From an uncultured Clostridia bacterium (GTDB taxonomy: Bacteria; Bacillota; Clostridia; Christensenellales; Borkfalkiaceae), in the NCBI GenBank assembly GCA_944343275.1, contig CALVMH010000002.1, positions 1-64,000 on the forward strand: a stretch of DNA of 64,000 bases, written 5' to 3'. This document shows, piece after piece, positions 9,541 to 48,317 of the stretch. A model generated the notes under the pieces. It did not search any database and was not told the origin of the DNA. It worked only from the letters and a program-made list of their open reading frames with translations. Each line of letters begins with the position of its first letter. The first letter of the stretch is position 1. A program made the translations under genes and the position numbers.

Positions 9541-10602
9541 TCAACGGACGGGTTTGCGCCAGCCGTAAGGGTCGGGAGCGGTCCCGTACTGGATGCCCGT
9601 GATGGTATCATAGAGCATCTTGGTGACGGGTCCCATCTTGCCCCCGCCGATGACGTAGTCGGTATCCTTGTAGCGGATGAGCCCGACGGGAGAAATGACT
9701 GCCGCCGTGCCCGTGCCGAACGCTTCGTCAAGCGTGCCGTCTTTCTGCGCGGCAAGGACCTCATCGATGGAGATACGGCGTTCCGAAACGGGAATGCCCT
9801 TATCTTTGAGGACCTGAATGCAGCTCTTGCGCGTGATGCCGGGAAGGATGGAACCGACGAGCGCGGGGGTGACGACCTCGCCGCCGATGACGAAGAACAT
9901 GTTCATGCTGCCCACTTCTTCGACATACTTCTTCTCGTTGGCGTCCAGCCAGAGCACCTGATCGAAGCCCTTTTCCTCCGCCTCCTCGCCCGCCTTCATG
10001 GACGCGGCGTAATTGCCGAGGCACTTTGCCTCCCCCGTGCCGCCGATGGTGGCGCGGGTATACTTGTCCTCAACGATGAGTTTGGTGGGTTCCAGACCGT
10101 GCGCATAATAGCTGCCGACGGGCGAAAGGATGATGAAAAAGAGATATTCCGTCGATGCATGCACGCCGAGCATGACGCGAGTCGCAACGATGGTCGGGCG
10201 GATGTAGAGCGCCGTGCCGGGTTCCGACGGGACCCAATCCGCATCCAGCTTCAAAAGCGTCTCCAATCCCTCCTGCGCAAGTTCTGCGGGGAAGTTGGGG
10301 ATGCACATGCGCGTTGCGGAACGGTTCATGCGCGCCCAATTCTCATCGGGACGGAAGACGCAGATCGACCCGTCCTTCTGACGGAACGCTTTCATTCCCT
10401 CGAAAATGCCCTGTGCGTAGTGGAAGATGCTCGTGGCGAGGTCGAACGCCTTGGGTTCGTTGGGCTCCACCTTGGCATCGTGCCAGCCCTTTCCCGCCGA
10501 ATATTTCATCGTGAACATGTAGTCGGTGAAATATTTACCGAAACCGAGCTGCGTGCCCTTGGCGGGCTTGTCTTTGAGTTGCTGCCTTTTGACGATTTCC
10601 AT
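9541..10602 (-). CDS. ilvE: Branched-chain amino acid aminotransferase
   Basis: This PLP enzyme makes or breaks down Leu, Ile and Val by transamination with 2-oxoglutarate. The 353-residue protein matches the eukaryotic-like BCAT group: FHYAQGIFEGMKAFR near the N-terminus, GSYYAHG, and the PLP lysine (about residue 193) in GTGEAKCLGNYAAS, with EEVGSMNMFF and a C-terminal FGTGTAAVISPVG. I use the MEIVKRQQ start because GGAGG is 8 bases before it. It is the third gene after tyrS and yigZ with no terminator between, so it may share the tyrS attenuator. BCATs often also accept aromatic amino acids. Confidence 0.95.
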   Translation of the reverse strand: MEIVKRQQLKDKPAKGTQLGFGKYFTDYMFTMKYSAGKGWHDAKVEPNEPKAFDLATSIFHYAQGIFEGMKAFRQKDGSICVFRPDENWARMNRSATRMCIPNFPAELAQEGLETLLKLDADWVPSEPGTALYIRPTIVATRVMLGVHASTEYLFFIILSPVGSYYAHGLEPTKLIVEDKYTRATIGGTGEAKCLGNYAASMKAGEEAEEKGFDQVLWLDANEKKYVEEVGSMNMFFVIGGEVVTPALVGSILPGITRKSCIQVLKDKGIPVSERRISIDEVLAAQKDGTLDEAFGTGTAAVISPVGLIRYKDTDYVIGGGKMGPVTKMLYDTITGIQYGTAPDPYGWRKPVR

Positions 10603-10645
10603 AAGAACGCCTCCGTTCTGGATTTTCATTCAATTCTCTTGCCGC

Positions 10646-11275
10646 TTATTTGCCGAGCGGGAAGGGTGCGAGCGCACAGCTTTGACGGACGATCTCCAAC
10701 CTGCCGCACAGCGCATCCGAAAGCGATGCGCAAAACGCCTGTTCCTCCGCCGCCCGCACGCGGATAAGAAAACGGGCTTTTTCGGAGAATTCCCGCGAGA
10801 CGAGCTCGCATCTGCCGTTCACGGCGCGCATGAGCGCATCCACTTCCGCATATTCTGCAATCAGCTGCAAAAACGCGCATTCCTCCCAGCGGGCAAGCGG
10901 CGCCTGTTCCAGACATTCCGACGCACACCCCGCATAGGCGCGCGTCAGTCCGCCCGCGCCCAGCTTGACGCCGCCGAAGTAACGCACCACGGCGACCGCC
11001 GTTTCGCACAGCCCCCTGGCGCGCAGAACGCCCAGAATGGGCATGCCCGCCGTCCCCTGCGGCTCGCCGTCGTCTGAAAATCGCATGAGATTCCCGAGGC
11101 GGTCGGCGACATACGCGTGGCAGACGTGCGTAGCGAGCGGGTGCTCCCCGCGCACAAAGGCGAGGAATGCGCGCGCTTCCTCCTCCCCTGCGACATGATC
11201 GCAGTACGTGAGAAAGCGGGACTTTTCAATGACCTTTTCCGCACAATGCGGCGCGGCGACGCTCAGAAAGCTCAT
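10646..11275 (-). CDS. YigZ/IMPACT family protein
   Basis: The 209-residue protein has the UPF0029/IMPACT fold: KSRFLTYC at the start, the THVCHAYV strand, and the signature [16 protein letters not shown] followed by [16 protein letters not shown] smaller C-terminal ferredoxin-like domain follows. Members have been linked to translation control in eukaryotes, but the bacterial role is not settled. Its ATG overlaps the tyrS stop codon (ATGA), so translation is coupled. The longer upstream frame is an artefact of reading through tyrS. Confidence 0.9.
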
Positions 11276-12465
11276 CCGACAATGACGTTGAGGCGCACCT
11301 TCTTCCCCTTGAACAGGGTGAAGGGCGAGGCGGGAAGCGCGGCGTTGACGTCCGTCACCTTCTCGCCGTTGATGCTCACGCCGCCCTGCTCGACAAGCCT
11401 GCGCGCCTCGCCGTTGGACTTGCACAGCCCCGTGGCGAGCAGCGCGGCAAGCACCGTCTGCGTGCCTGCGGGCACCCGCTTTTCGGGCATCTCCCCCTCG
11501 CCGCCGAAGGCTGCGCGCGCCTCTGCCTGCGCCGCAAGCGCCTTCTCTTCGCCGTGCACCATCTTGGTGAGCTCGAAGGCGAGCACCTCCTTGGCGCGGT
11601 TGATGCGCTCATCTTGAAATTTTGTGAGCTCCGCGATCTCCTCCAACGGCAGGAAGGTGAGGAGCTTCAGGCACTTTTCGACGTCGGCGTCCGCCGTGTT
11701 GCGCCAATACTGATAAAACTCATAGGGCGAAGTCTTGTTCTCGTCCAGCCAGACGGCGCCCTTTTGCGTCTTGCCCATCTTCTTGCCCTCGCTCGTGGTG
11801 AGCAGGGTGAAGGTCATGGCGAACGCCGCCTTGCGCTCCTTTCTGCGGATGAGGTCGGCGCCCGCCAGAATGTTGCTCCACTGATCGTCCCCGCCAAGCT
11901 GCAAGAGGCACCCGTACTTGCGGTTTAAGACGAGGAAGTCATACGCCTGCATGAGCATATAGTTGAATTCGAGGAAGGTGAGCCCCTTCTCCATGCGGGA
12001 GCGGTAGCACTCCGCCGTGAGCATCTTGTTGACGGAAAAATACACGCCCACGTCACGCAGAAAGTCCACATAGTTGAGGTCCAGAAGCCAATCGGCGTTA
12101 TCCACGACGACGGCGCCGTTCTCCCCTTCGAAGCGGATGAAGCGCGCCATCTGCTTTTTGAAGCACTCGACGTGATGCTTCACCGTTTCGCGCGTCATCA
12201 TCGAGCGCATGTCCGTCCTTCCCGAGGGGTCGCCGATCATGCCCGTGCCGCCGCCGATGAGGATGATGGGCTTGTGCCCCGCGTCCTGCATGTGCTTCAT
12301 GGCGACGAGCTGCATAAAGTGCCCGACGTGCAGGCTGTCCGCCGTCGGGTCAAACCCGATATAAAAGGGAACGCACTCCGTTCCGAGCTTTTCGTAGAGC
12401 TCTTCCTCGTAGACGGTCTGCTTGATAAATCCCCGCGCACGCAGGGTGTCCATGACGTTTTGCAT
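11272..12465 (-). CDS. tyrS: Tyrosyl-tRNA synthetase
   Basis: Class I synthetase charging tRNA-Tyr. The HIGH motif appears as HVGH at residues 46-49 ([12 protein letters not shown]), and the KMSKS loop as KMGKT near residue 230. The tyrosine/tRNA pocket segment [13 protein letters not shown] is intact. The last 60 residues form an S4 RNA-binding domain ([18 protein letters not shown]). The start at MQNVMDTL is set by AAAGGAG 6 bases before it. The 397 residues are a normal length for the TyrRS type with that loop. Expression appears to be controlled by the leader-peptide attenuator upstream rather than a T-box. Confidence 0.97.
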
Positions 12466-12489
12466 GTGTGCTCCTTTCTGCCGCATATC

Positions 12490-12608
12490 AAAAAACGGTC
12501 TGCGCCGCGCGCAAACCGTTTCATCCACCTTGTCTACGCGCGGAAACAATATTACGCAAGAACGTAATACGCGTAGCCGTAAATTGCAACCGCAAGCGAA
12601 TGTTTCAT
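12490..12608 (-). promoter_or_regulatory. Tyrosine attenuator in the tyrS leader
   Basis: On the minus strand the transcript encodes an 18-residue peptide with four Tyr codons, overlapping RNA segment 1 (12563-12576). Segment 1 can pair with segment 2 (12534-12556): CTACGCG with CGCGTAG, and TATTACG with CGTAATA. Part of segment 2 (CCGCGCG, 12537-12543) can instead pair with CGCGCGG (12505-12511) inside the terminator. The terminator stem AACGGTTTGCG/CGCAGACCGTT (12490-12520) ends in six T. A ribosome stalled at Tyr codons would free segment 2 to block the terminator. This is the logic of the his/trp attenuators. It is read from sequence only. Confidence 0.75.
12552..12608 (-). CDS. tyrS leader peptide (Tyr-rich)
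   Basis: The reading frame is [18 protein letters not shown], with Tyr at 10, 12, 14 and 15. Its ATG lies 6 bases after the -10 box, so the mRNA probably starts at or within a base of the ATG and is translated leaderless. It ends inside the hairpin segment that competes with the tyrS terminator. It has no other recognisable function, and its size, codon content and place are what a transcription-attenuation leader needs. Confidence 0.75.
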
Positions 12609-12614
12609 GACCTT

Positions 12615-12643
12615 ATTATACGACGCGGAAGGACAAAAGTCAA
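12615..12643 (-). promoter_or_regulatory. Promoter of the tyrS operon
   Basis: TTGACT, 17 bases, TATAAT on the minus strand. Confidence 0.8.
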
Positions 12644-12746
12644 ACGCTTGCACGGCATTTCCCGCCAAAAGCGGCAATTTATTTGAGAAAGCGAAAGATG
12701 CGCGCAAAGAAAGCGCCCTGCTTAGACGGCAAATTTCAAGCACTGT

Positions 12747-12935
12747 TTAAACGCATGCCGCATCCGCGCAGGCAAGGCGCTCCTTTGTATTGAGCCCCTC
12801 CAACGCATGCAGTGCCGCGAGCGCCCCTTCCGGCGTGCGCAGCTGCGAAAGGCGGGCGCGCAGCGCCGCATTGCGCCGTTCCCGTTCGCGGCGGCGCAGG
12901 GAGTTTTGTACTTCTTCCATAGAGAATGCTTTCAT
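12747..12935 (-). CDS. Small hypothetical protein (62 residues)
   Basis: The frame MKAFSMEEVQNSLRRRERER is followed by an Arg/Ala-rich helical stretch and ends ACADAACV. I recognise no family. GGGAG lies just before the first ATG; a second ATG five codons later is also possible. It is divergent from the WYL regulator, sharing a 90-base intergenic region. Its existence as a gene rests only on the open frame, a helical amphipathic composition and the ribosome site, so it could be spurious. Confidence 0.35.
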   Translation of the reverse strand: MKAFSMEEVQNSLRRRERERRNAALRARLSQLRTPEGALAALHALEGLNTKERLACADAACV

Positions 12936-25575: not shown

Positions 25576-25850
25576 GATATCCTCCCGTAAAACAACGCCA
25601 TTATGCCTGACATAGTACTGTGCAGCATGCGCAAAACAACAAAAATGCGCCCCTAAATCCCCTTTTTTGGGAAATTTAAGGACGCAGACGGTTCCGCGCG
25701 GTTCCACCTTAATTGCCGAGAATAACGGCCGCTCTTTTTTTGCAATTGGTAAAATCGGATGGTTTCGCCCGCCGCCCGCCTTTGCGCGCCTTGCAGCCGA
25801 GGGACGCGCTCTCTGAAAAAAGCCATGCGGCACTACTTGTTCCGAAGTAC
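25576..25850 (-). promoter_or_regulatory. T-box riboswitch of thrS
   Basis: The leader contains the conserved AAGGTGGAACCGCG (25697-25710, minus strand) followed by a terminator GCGTCCTTAAATTTCCC/GGGGATTTAGGGGCGC with ATTTTTG (25640-25685). Uncharged tRNA-Thr should stabilise the alternative antiterminator. I could not fix the specifier codon with confidence. Confidence 0.85.
25599..25619. promoter_or_regulatory. Second copy of the ATTATG-CTGACAT motif
   Basis: Imperfect copy of the palindrome at 15380-15400, between the T-box terminator and the thrS ribosome site. Confidence 0.3.
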
Positions 25851-25854
25851 CGCT

Positions 25855-47733: not shown

Positions 47734-47761
47734 TTGACTTTTTTTGCAGGTGCACTATAAT
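47734..47761 (+). promoter_or_regulatory. Promoter of the Gx-Rnf operon (leaderless geometry)
   Basis: TTGACT, 16 bases, TATAAT; the ATG follows 7 bases after the -10. Confidence 0.7.
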
Positions 47762-47768
47762 GATAGTT

Positions 47769-48317
47769 ATGGAACGTGCAAAAAAAGGCAATACGGGAAG
47801 AAAGGTCGCCGTGCTCGGCATTCTTGCGGGGCTCGGTCTTGCCGCTTTTCTGCTGGAAAGCCTCATCCCCCTGCCCTTTCTGCCCGGCGCCAAGCTCGGG
47901 TTTGCCAACATCTTTTCCCTGCTGGCACTGCTCCTGTACGGGCTTCCGGAGGCGCTCATCGTTGTGACGGCGCGCACGGTGCTCGGCAGCCTGTTCGCGG
48001 GAAACGTTTCCATGCTGCTCTATTCGCTGACGGCGGGGCTTGTCTCCGCGTGCGCCTCCCGCCTGCTGCTCTGTGCACTGCCGCGCCTGAGCTTCGTATG
48101 CGTGAGCGTCGCGGGCGCCGTTGTGCACAACCTCGTGCAGCTCCTTGTCTACTGTGCGCTGACGGGGACCCTGCTGCTCTTCGCCTACTCCCCCTATCTC
48201 ACCCTGATGGGCGCGGGGGCGGGCGTTTTGGTGGGACTTGCCGTCACGCTGACATTGAAAGCACTGCCTGCGCGCTTTGTCCGCGCGGAGGTCATGTTGA
48301 AGGAGGAATCCAAGTGA
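47769..48317 (+). CDS. Gx transporter family protein (HepT-I-like)
   Basis: The 182-residue integral membrane protein has about five helices and the repeated Gly/Leu pattern of PF07456 (LLESLIPLPFLPGAKLGFANIF, outline; then ARTVLGSLFAGNVSMLLYSL). These small transporters often head Rnf operons or sit with prenyl diphosphate genes; their cargo is unknown. No ribosome site precedes the ATG, which follows the -10 by 7 bases. Its stop overlaps the rnfC start (GTGA), so the two are coupled. Confidence 0.85.
   Translation: MERAKKGNTGRKVAVLGILAGLGLAAFLLESLIPLPFLPGAKLGFANIFSLLALLLYGLPEALIVVTARTVLGSLFAGNVSMLLYSLTAGLVSACASRLLLCALPRLSFVCVSVAGAVVHNLVQLLVYCALTGTLLLFAYSPYLTLMGAGAGVLVGLAVTLTLKALPARFVRAEVMLKEESK

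Follow-up and report, generated by a model that had tools for sequence, protein, structure and literature searches.

In Bacillus subtilis, the charging of tRNA(Tyr) controls tyrS through a T-box that binds the tRNA directly, without translation, and acts on a terminator. How is tyrS controlled in the uncultured Clostridia bacterium studied here, for which an earlier note on a 64,000-nucleotide stretch of DNA (the window) had proposed a tyrosine leader-peptide attenuator ahead of this gene? According to the excerpted text of a 2005 paper, T-boxes govern most synthetase genes of the Firmicutes, and classical attenuation governs none of them (PMC1262725).

Organization of the tyrS leader

All elements of the leader lie on the minus strand at 12490-12643, and the coordinates and pairings of the earlier note proved right. 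A sigma70-type promoter, TTGACT-17-TATAAT (12615..12643; 11/12 consensus matches, 0.3 expected in the promoter scan), consists of a TTGACT box at 12643-12638 and a TATAAT box at 12620-12615, separated by 17 nt and followed by AAGGTC. The ATG of an 18-codon leader-peptide ORF (12552..12608; ATG at 12608, stop codon at 12554-12552) is 6 nt past the −10 box. Its four Tyr codons, which the note had picked out, are codons 10, 12, 14 and 15 (12564..12581) and form the putative sensor. Segment 1 (12563..12578) spans Tyr codons 12, 14 and 15 and pairs with the next segment as described, segment 2 (12533..12556), whose 3' part, CCGCGCGUAGA, is the 5' strand of the antiterminator. Segment 3 (12505..12519) is both the antiterminator 3' strand and the terminator 5' arm, and segment 4 with a U6 run (12490..12505) is the terminator 3' arm.

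The 2:3 antiterminator pairs CCGCGCGUAGA at 12543-12533 with UUUGCGCGCGG at 12515-12505, and the alternative pairing of CCGCGCG with CGCGCGG noted before is contained within this helix. The terminator has a GC-rich stem of 11 bp (12519-12509 with 12505-12495) followed by six T at 12495-12490; as noted before, it is placed between the leader ORF and tyrS (11272..12465, minus strand; TIGR00234 420.6 bits, cut-off 113.8), the putatively regulated gene, whose ATG at 12465 is preceded by an SD-like AAAGGAG at 12477-12471. This hairpin is absent from the list of a mechanical terminator scan; the longest stem of the hairpin, we infer, consumes part of the U-run. The three local hairpins are near-equal in energy (1:2, −17.5; 2:3, −17.3; 3:4, −18.4 kcal/mol). 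The leader RNA folds better than its dinucleotide shuffles (z −3.07; 1/200 shuffles equally good), and we regard the leader as not a product of chance mainly because it is conserved: a covariance model of the full leader, built from 37 aligned leaders (alignment A1), matches 41/103 genus genomes, in every one of them ahead of tyrS and with no fewer than two Tyr codons.

Downstream on the same strand lie yigZ (10646..11269; TIGR00257 174.7 bits, cut-off 167.95) and ilvE, a branched-chain aminotransferase gene (9541..10629; PRK13357 471.6 bits, cut-off 307), the possible second and third genes of the unit. The promoter scan gave no promoter-like site between tyrS and ilvE, in keeping with the co-control suggested for both genes, but yigZ follows tyrS about equally often without a leader (38/45) as with one (32/41); control of yigZ and ilvE by the tyrS leader is only plausible.

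Conservation of the leader and competing explanations

We found tyrS in 149/151 genomes and read 180 upstream regions (86 from the genus, 28 from other families of the order and 66 from GenBank-named records), four of which have less than 200 nt upstream. A short ORF with its ATG 3-12 nt past a promoter-like site is present in 48/180 regions. In the genus 37/86 regions have such an ORF, 35 of the 37 with at least two Tyr and two (G071, G082) with none. We kept the leaders of 39 of the 48 regions: the 35 from the genus plus L122, L131, L140 and L180. Four (G082, L137, L142, L194) were dropped for having fewer than two Tyr, and five (G071, G102, L144, L170, L179) were excluded individually; two of these, L170 and L179, do contain two Tyr or more and were set aside as distant by judgement. 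L179 (Clostridium sp. cel8) carries the promoter-proximal ORF MIIYKLVNWLIYIYNGYNVL, with five Tyr, 142 nt before tyrS, which may be chance. Alignment A1 contains 37 of the 39 leaders, L140 and L180 being counted outside it. The 41 model matches in the genus are the 35 known leaders and six from outside the model, each of which has a promoter-proximal ORF with Tyr codons ahead of tyrS, such as MFSQRKNNLSYVYAYSRIGNTVFCA and MNTLPNNGMRPYYRLG.

A total of 46 leaders were found before tyrS, with 39 distinct peptides in seven clusters at <50% identity. The peptides are 14 to 27 codons long and divergent in sequence, and Tyr is kept throughout: all 46 hold at least two Tyr, and 36/39 hold at least three (three to six). 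In 37/37 aligned leaders, 21-29 nt separate the end of the last Tyr codon in the cluster from the antiterminator core (in L131 the cluster, 23 nt away, was counted and a further Tyr only 2 nt from the core set aside), a near-fixed spacing at which a stalled ribosome would cover segment 1 and not segment 2. In six cluster representatives the reading frame holds 20 Tyr codons, the two other frames hold 0 and 3, and shuffles hold 3.5 ± 1.8, a count that is somewhat circular and somewhat overstated, since the representatives had been kept for having Tyr. The stop codon falls into two main classes of position. It is 13-17 nt before the segment 2 core in 27 leaders (14 nt in our own species) and inside the core (CGCGUAA or CGUGA) in nine leaders with peptides of 24-27 codons; in L122 it is 6 nt before the core. 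Both classes fit a ribosome that spares segment 2 when stalled at Tyr and reaches segment 2 at the stop codon.

These data bear on the possibility of an arrest peptide, in which the nascent chain would stall the ribosome on free tyrosine or another ligand and the tyrosines would act as residues, not codons. The leader peptide is highly conserved among the closest relatives, as such a peptide would be, but distant leaders share little except their 2 to 6 Tyr (MKKQFPKTYFSYRPL, MKNASFAATYRYYRIG, MNTLPNNGMRPYYRLG, MKKSACVYFTGEYSVL), in the aligned leaders the distance between Tyr codons and antiterminator is more constant than any motif of the peptide, and the aroF leaders of the order (see below) mix Tyr and Phe codons freely. 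We consider an arrest peptide quite improbable.

The promoter motif TTGAC[AT]-17/18-TATAAT precedes 37/39 kept leader ORFs, with TAAACT in L131 and L180, and the leader ATG is 6-10 nt past the −10 box in all 39. The pattern TTGAC-N17,20-TATAAT-N4,11-ATG occurs at 32 sites in our own genome (two share one promoter), for example at 47734-47771 on the plus strand of the window, versus 0 when read backwards. Of 30 such loci, 29 could be read, at 28 promoters, and frames of at least 142 codons are open at 13/28 of them, some of these resembling diaminopimelate decarboxylase, MetK, shikimate kinase and EPSP synthase (names assigned by eye). Leaderless or near-leaderless transcripts therefore look ordinary in this genome, and near-leaderless mRNAs look common in the genus; the tyrS leader ORF is probably leaderless, as several other genes of this genome look to be. 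In the excerpted part of a 2011 survey, leaderless genes were reported in 56/209 Firmicutes genomes, concentrated in Lactobacillales and Mycoplasma (PMC3160421). Elsewhere in our own genome (locus L219, C11:19580-19618), a short promoter-proximal ORF, MKKAVFSCRKRQMKQSG, followed by a T-run, lies before a purE-like gene (by eye).

We then examined the alternative pairings in A1, where both-sided changes are partly inherited, so that they cannot be counted as separate events. Pairing in the terminator is 97.5%, 7/11 of its pairs are changed on both sides, and 0/500 shuffles are as high on any of five measures. The inner 1:2 helix is 90.7% paired with 5/8 pairs changed on both sides; its covariation score and changed cells exceed all shuffles, while its number of changed pairs is reached by 61/500. 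The 2:3 helix is 97.3% paired, a value reached by 3/500 shuffles, with both-sided change in only 1/7 pairs (reached by 60/500) and nine further pair types (17/500), the changes being mostly one-sided; in the more distant genome G397, the antiterminator strands GAGCAAA/UUUGCUC have changed in concert (by eye). The outer 1:2 helix is 83.5% paired, several of its measures are equally high in shuffled or slid versions, and it has no clear covariation support among the 37 sequences. When one partner was slid by 1-3 columns, paired cells fell to at most 48% for the terminator, 59% for 2:3, 54% for inner 1:2 and 63% for outer 1:2. The covariation that the earlier note had proposed to look for was thus seen in the terminator and the inner 1:2 helix but not clearly in the outer 1:2 helix, and in 2:3 the change is mostly one-sided. 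The 1:2, 2:3 and 3:4 pairings are mutually exclusive, 1:2 excluding 2:3 only through its outer, least supported part.

A conserved promoter-proximal terminator behind a spurious ORF, setting tyrS low by constant partial termination, would not be expected to keep such pairings. Five relatives (G019, G071, G082, L128, L130) do keep a terminator-like hairpin and, by eye, have lost the Tyr ORF and segments 1 and 2, which we read as decay of the leader. Two Tyr are also not rare in themselves, being present by eye in 3/12 other promoter-proximal short ORFs (7-39 codons) of our own genome; 0/12 of these have three, as compared to the 36/39 tyrS leaders with three or more. Against constant termination stand the conservation of both 1:2 and 2:3 and the in-frame Tyr codons of all 41 genus genomes matched by the full-leader model, none of which keeps the hairpins but loses the Tyr, the outcome that the earlier note had named as fatal to its proposal; we regard a constant terminator as very improbable.

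We looked for a better explanation by a T-box and found none. RF00230 was searched at E ≤ 0.001 in the 1.98-Mb assembly of 92 contigs and matches five places, two above the cut-off and one before thrS. The earlier note had assigned a T-box to thrS, and a divergent match is indeed present in the window at 25675-25852 (minus strand), but its 61.2 bits are below the Rfam cut-off of 93. No match was found at tyrS at this threshold, though the search found the divergent thrS T-box. Rfam gave only chance-level matches far below cut-off at 12200-12800, and at gathering scores across the window only three tRNAs and no amino-acid leader family. Upstream of tyrS in other families of the order, 20/28 regions have no Rfam match at E ≤ 0.1, in a search run with no positive control. 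Direct sensing of uncharged tRNA(Tyr) by a T-box or another riboswitch, beside an incidental ORF, is hardly credible, common as T-boxes are on synthetase genes of the phylum (PMC1262725, as excerpted) and present as one is before thrS, because no match at E ≤ 0.001 lies at tyrS, the promoter-to-U-run transcript of ~120 nt compares with a T-box model of 219 positions, and the Tyr codons are kept in frame.

A proposed switch and its folding

The comparison of leaders from relatives supports the proposal of a Tyr leader-peptide attenuator, and tyrS is very probably controlled by a classical ribosome-mediated transcription attenuator that senses tRNA(Tyr) charging. We are less confident of how a ribosome at the stop codon releases the terminator. 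In the proposed mechanism, the leader ORF would be translated from a leaderless mRNA that begins at or next to the leader-peptide ATG, and transcription into tyrS would respond to tyrosine as follows. When charged tRNA(Tyr) is scarce, the ribosome would stall at the Tyr cluster (codons 10-15) and cover segment 1, leaving segment 2 free. The freed segment 2 would pair with segment 3 once that is made, the 3:4 terminator would be blocked, and RNA polymerase would continue into tyrS. When Tyr-tRNA is plentiful, the ribosome would proceed to the stop codon and reach into or cover segment 2, and 3:4 would terminate transcription.

The earlier note had recommended folding the leader with part of it masked; we folded the leaders with a ribosome masked at each codon. 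The automatic terminator finder worked for 36/39 leaders; the hairpins of G009, G062 and G064 were set by hand, and those of G023 and L180 were redefined. In the complete leader at equilibrium, the terminator falls below 50% in ten species once the ribosome occupies the last two Tyr codons, and in eight of these (8/39 species) it recovers to above 60% at the stop codon (3% vs 95% in G029, 0% vs 97% in L122). In 24/39 species, our own included, the terminator stays above 50% at every ribosome position; the switch must therefore be kinetic in these species, and for many species it must make a difference which helix folds first.

When transcripts end ahead of segment 4 and the ribosome sits on the last two Tyr codons, segment 3 forms six or more pairs with upstream sequence in 38/39 leaders (5.9 in L140). 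At least six such pairs also form in 31/39 leaders with no ribosome and in 34/39 with the ribosome at the stop codon, with means of 11.9 pairs at Tyr, 9.7 free and 8.7 at the stop. Since antiterminator-type pairing forms in 31/39 with no ribosome, 1:2 does not prevent the antiterminator at equilibrium. A ribosome at the stop codon weakens the 2:3/upstream structure by at least 3 kcal/mol in 30/39 leaders if 12 nt are protected past the A-site codon and in 13/39 if 9 nt are protected; its effect on 2:3 is clear where the stop codon is inside segment 2 and depends on the footprint assumed in the class with 15-19 codons.

Distribution, aroF leaders and known attenuators

The remaining 62/103 genus genomes have no match to the covariance model; where their upstream regions were read, the leader is in many cases simply short and lacks an attenuator. 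Besides the 41 genus genomes, the whole unit is found before tyrS in L122, L131, L140, L180 and G397, the last a member of another genus of the family with the leader MLKRNSHNFIAYAYFYRSDRIVLA. Across the order, an even sample of 396 genomes searched with stricter filters gave seven model matches, four of them in the genus, and a tyrS leader outside the genus occurs in one genome only; the tyrS leader is therefore largely confined to the genus and its near relatives. Two matches were rejected as leaders. One, in G268 (L234), has no leader ORF, only a repeated terminator-like sequence in which the hairpin and its flanks occur twice in tandem; the other, a second, weak match in G028 from the search of the genus, precedes an acetyltransferase-like gene and has an ORF with one Tyr. 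The named loci closest to this one come from metagenome-assembled genomes of uncultured Clostridia, a number of them recovered from the guts of sheep and deer.

A TyrS tree of 102 rows, of which 44 carry the leader, requires at least 12 leader changes (seven forced by well-supported branches; shuffled mean 33.2). The tree was midpoint rooted and 35/98 of its inner branches are weak, so that it does not distinguish gains from losses. We read the scattered distribution as an old leader that may have been lost repeatedly.

Another of the seven matches, that in G286 (E 0.0077), precedes a gene for DAHP synthase (PRK08673, 485.6 bits), and the frame after that gene looks by eye like tyrA. This aroF leader, MTVKMFAREAYFYFRFIGSVDKACCCA, is preceded by an SD-like sequence. 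In family f4 of the order, to which G286 belongs, 20/29 loci hold a Tyr/Phe-rich ORF upstream of aroF as compared to 0/29 reverse complements and 0.9% of 580 shuffles, by a criterion of five or more Tyr/Phe within ten residues, including at least one Tyr; the threshold was chosen after the leaders had been seen, so the count is exploratory. The loci are L253-L277 and L279-L282, 29 of 30 fetched, L278 being dropped as a fragment; L256 has only 114 nt upstream. Most of these leaders are followed by a T-run. Together they look like a second, larger family of predicted attenuators on aromatic amino acid synthesis. At 20 related loci (18 aroF, 2 tyrS), matches to Rfam families all stay below the family cut-off; the cut-off also misses the thrS T-box, so this null leaves room for divergent T-boxes at the aroF and tyrS loci. 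In our own genome there is no match to the G286-type aroF leader and no Tyr/Phe/Trp-rich leader upstream of the DAHP synthase gene, and pheS has only a sub-threshold match.

Classical ribosome-mediated attenuators, such as the trp, his and pheST leaders of E. coli, act on amino acid operons and on synthetase genes. The tyrS leader resembles them in its leader peptide of cognate codons, its exclusive 1:2, 2:3 and 3:4 hairpins, its intrinsic terminator and its position before a gene for the same amino acid. It differs in the pairing of tyrosine with tyrS, in apparently leaderless initiation and in its Bacillota host, sequence relation having been compared through Rfam only. With the B. subtilis tyrS T-box it would share the control of tyrS by tRNA(Tyr) charging via a terminator; the T-box differs in binding tRNA directly without translation, and no T-box match was found at tyrS here. 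Leaderless polycysteine short ORFs of mycobacteria reportedly act as attenuators, to go by the title of Canestrari et al. 2020; the likeness, also by title, is of a leaderless ORF of cognate codons serving as an attenuator, in mycobacteria and for cysteine.

An earlier paper, as excerpted, saw no conserved terminator hairpin in the mycobacterial cys leaders, and it lists Streptomyces trpS2 and leuS as candidate attenuators with predicted leader peptide, antiterminator and terminator (PMC1262725). These are likewise predicted attenuators before synthetase genes in a Gram-positive host, and differ in serving Trp and Leu in Actinobacteria. The nearest synthetase case is uORFC-8-2 before cysS in Rhodobacterales, described in the excerpted text with cognate codons usually at positions 14 and 15, a terminator and proposed read-through on stalling (PMC8632094); it too is a uORF of cognate codons with a terminator before a synthetase gene, but for cysteine and in Alphaproteobacteria. 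Within the Bacillota, His leader peptides were predicted in 2010 to lie ahead of hisS* and hisZ in Bacillus (PMC2965389, as excerpted), and a 2022 paper, which also describes his operon attenuation, assigns predicted His attenuators to the his operons of several Firmicutes groups (PMC9413887, as excerpted). These are predicted attenuators in the same phylum, on synthetase paralogues and in place of a T-box, and differ in serving histidine in other orders, with no leaderless start described in the same excerpts.

No Tyr leader on tyrS was found in the literature searched, whose coverage lies mostly outside subscription journals. Earlier predictions of leader-peptide attenuation in Bacillota thus already cover his genes and the hisS/hisZ paralogues, and what look new are tyrS, tyrosine and the leaderless start. 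The tyrS leader would be a mechanism of a known kind in a new amino acid, gene and lineage, probably with leaderless initiation.

Taken together, the leaders suggest that in several lineages of Christensenellales leader-peptide translation may control the supply of aromatic amino acids where other Bacillota use T-boxes. A leaderless Tyr leader, on which the ribosome would load at the emerging 5' end, would act on tyrS, and Tyr/Phe leaders would act on aroF-tyrA; the tyrS leader would be ancestral in its clade and lost many times, with two stop-codon designs in which the ribosome would either approach or occupy the antiterminator strand. We give this joint reading even chances, slightly less than at first because in the order-wide sample the tyrS leader was found in only one genome outside the genus. 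If the tyrS leader acts as proposed, tyrosine and tyrS would join the amino acids and synthetase genes proposed to be under leader peptides, in a phylum where the T-box is the textbook solution, and leaderless translation would be joined with attenuation in Bacillota. A leaderless leader peptide may be a simple means to synchronise ribosome and polymerase, and the evolution of attenuators can be tested directly on dozens of natural variants, some of which have the leader, with the stop codon in either of two places, while others lack it.
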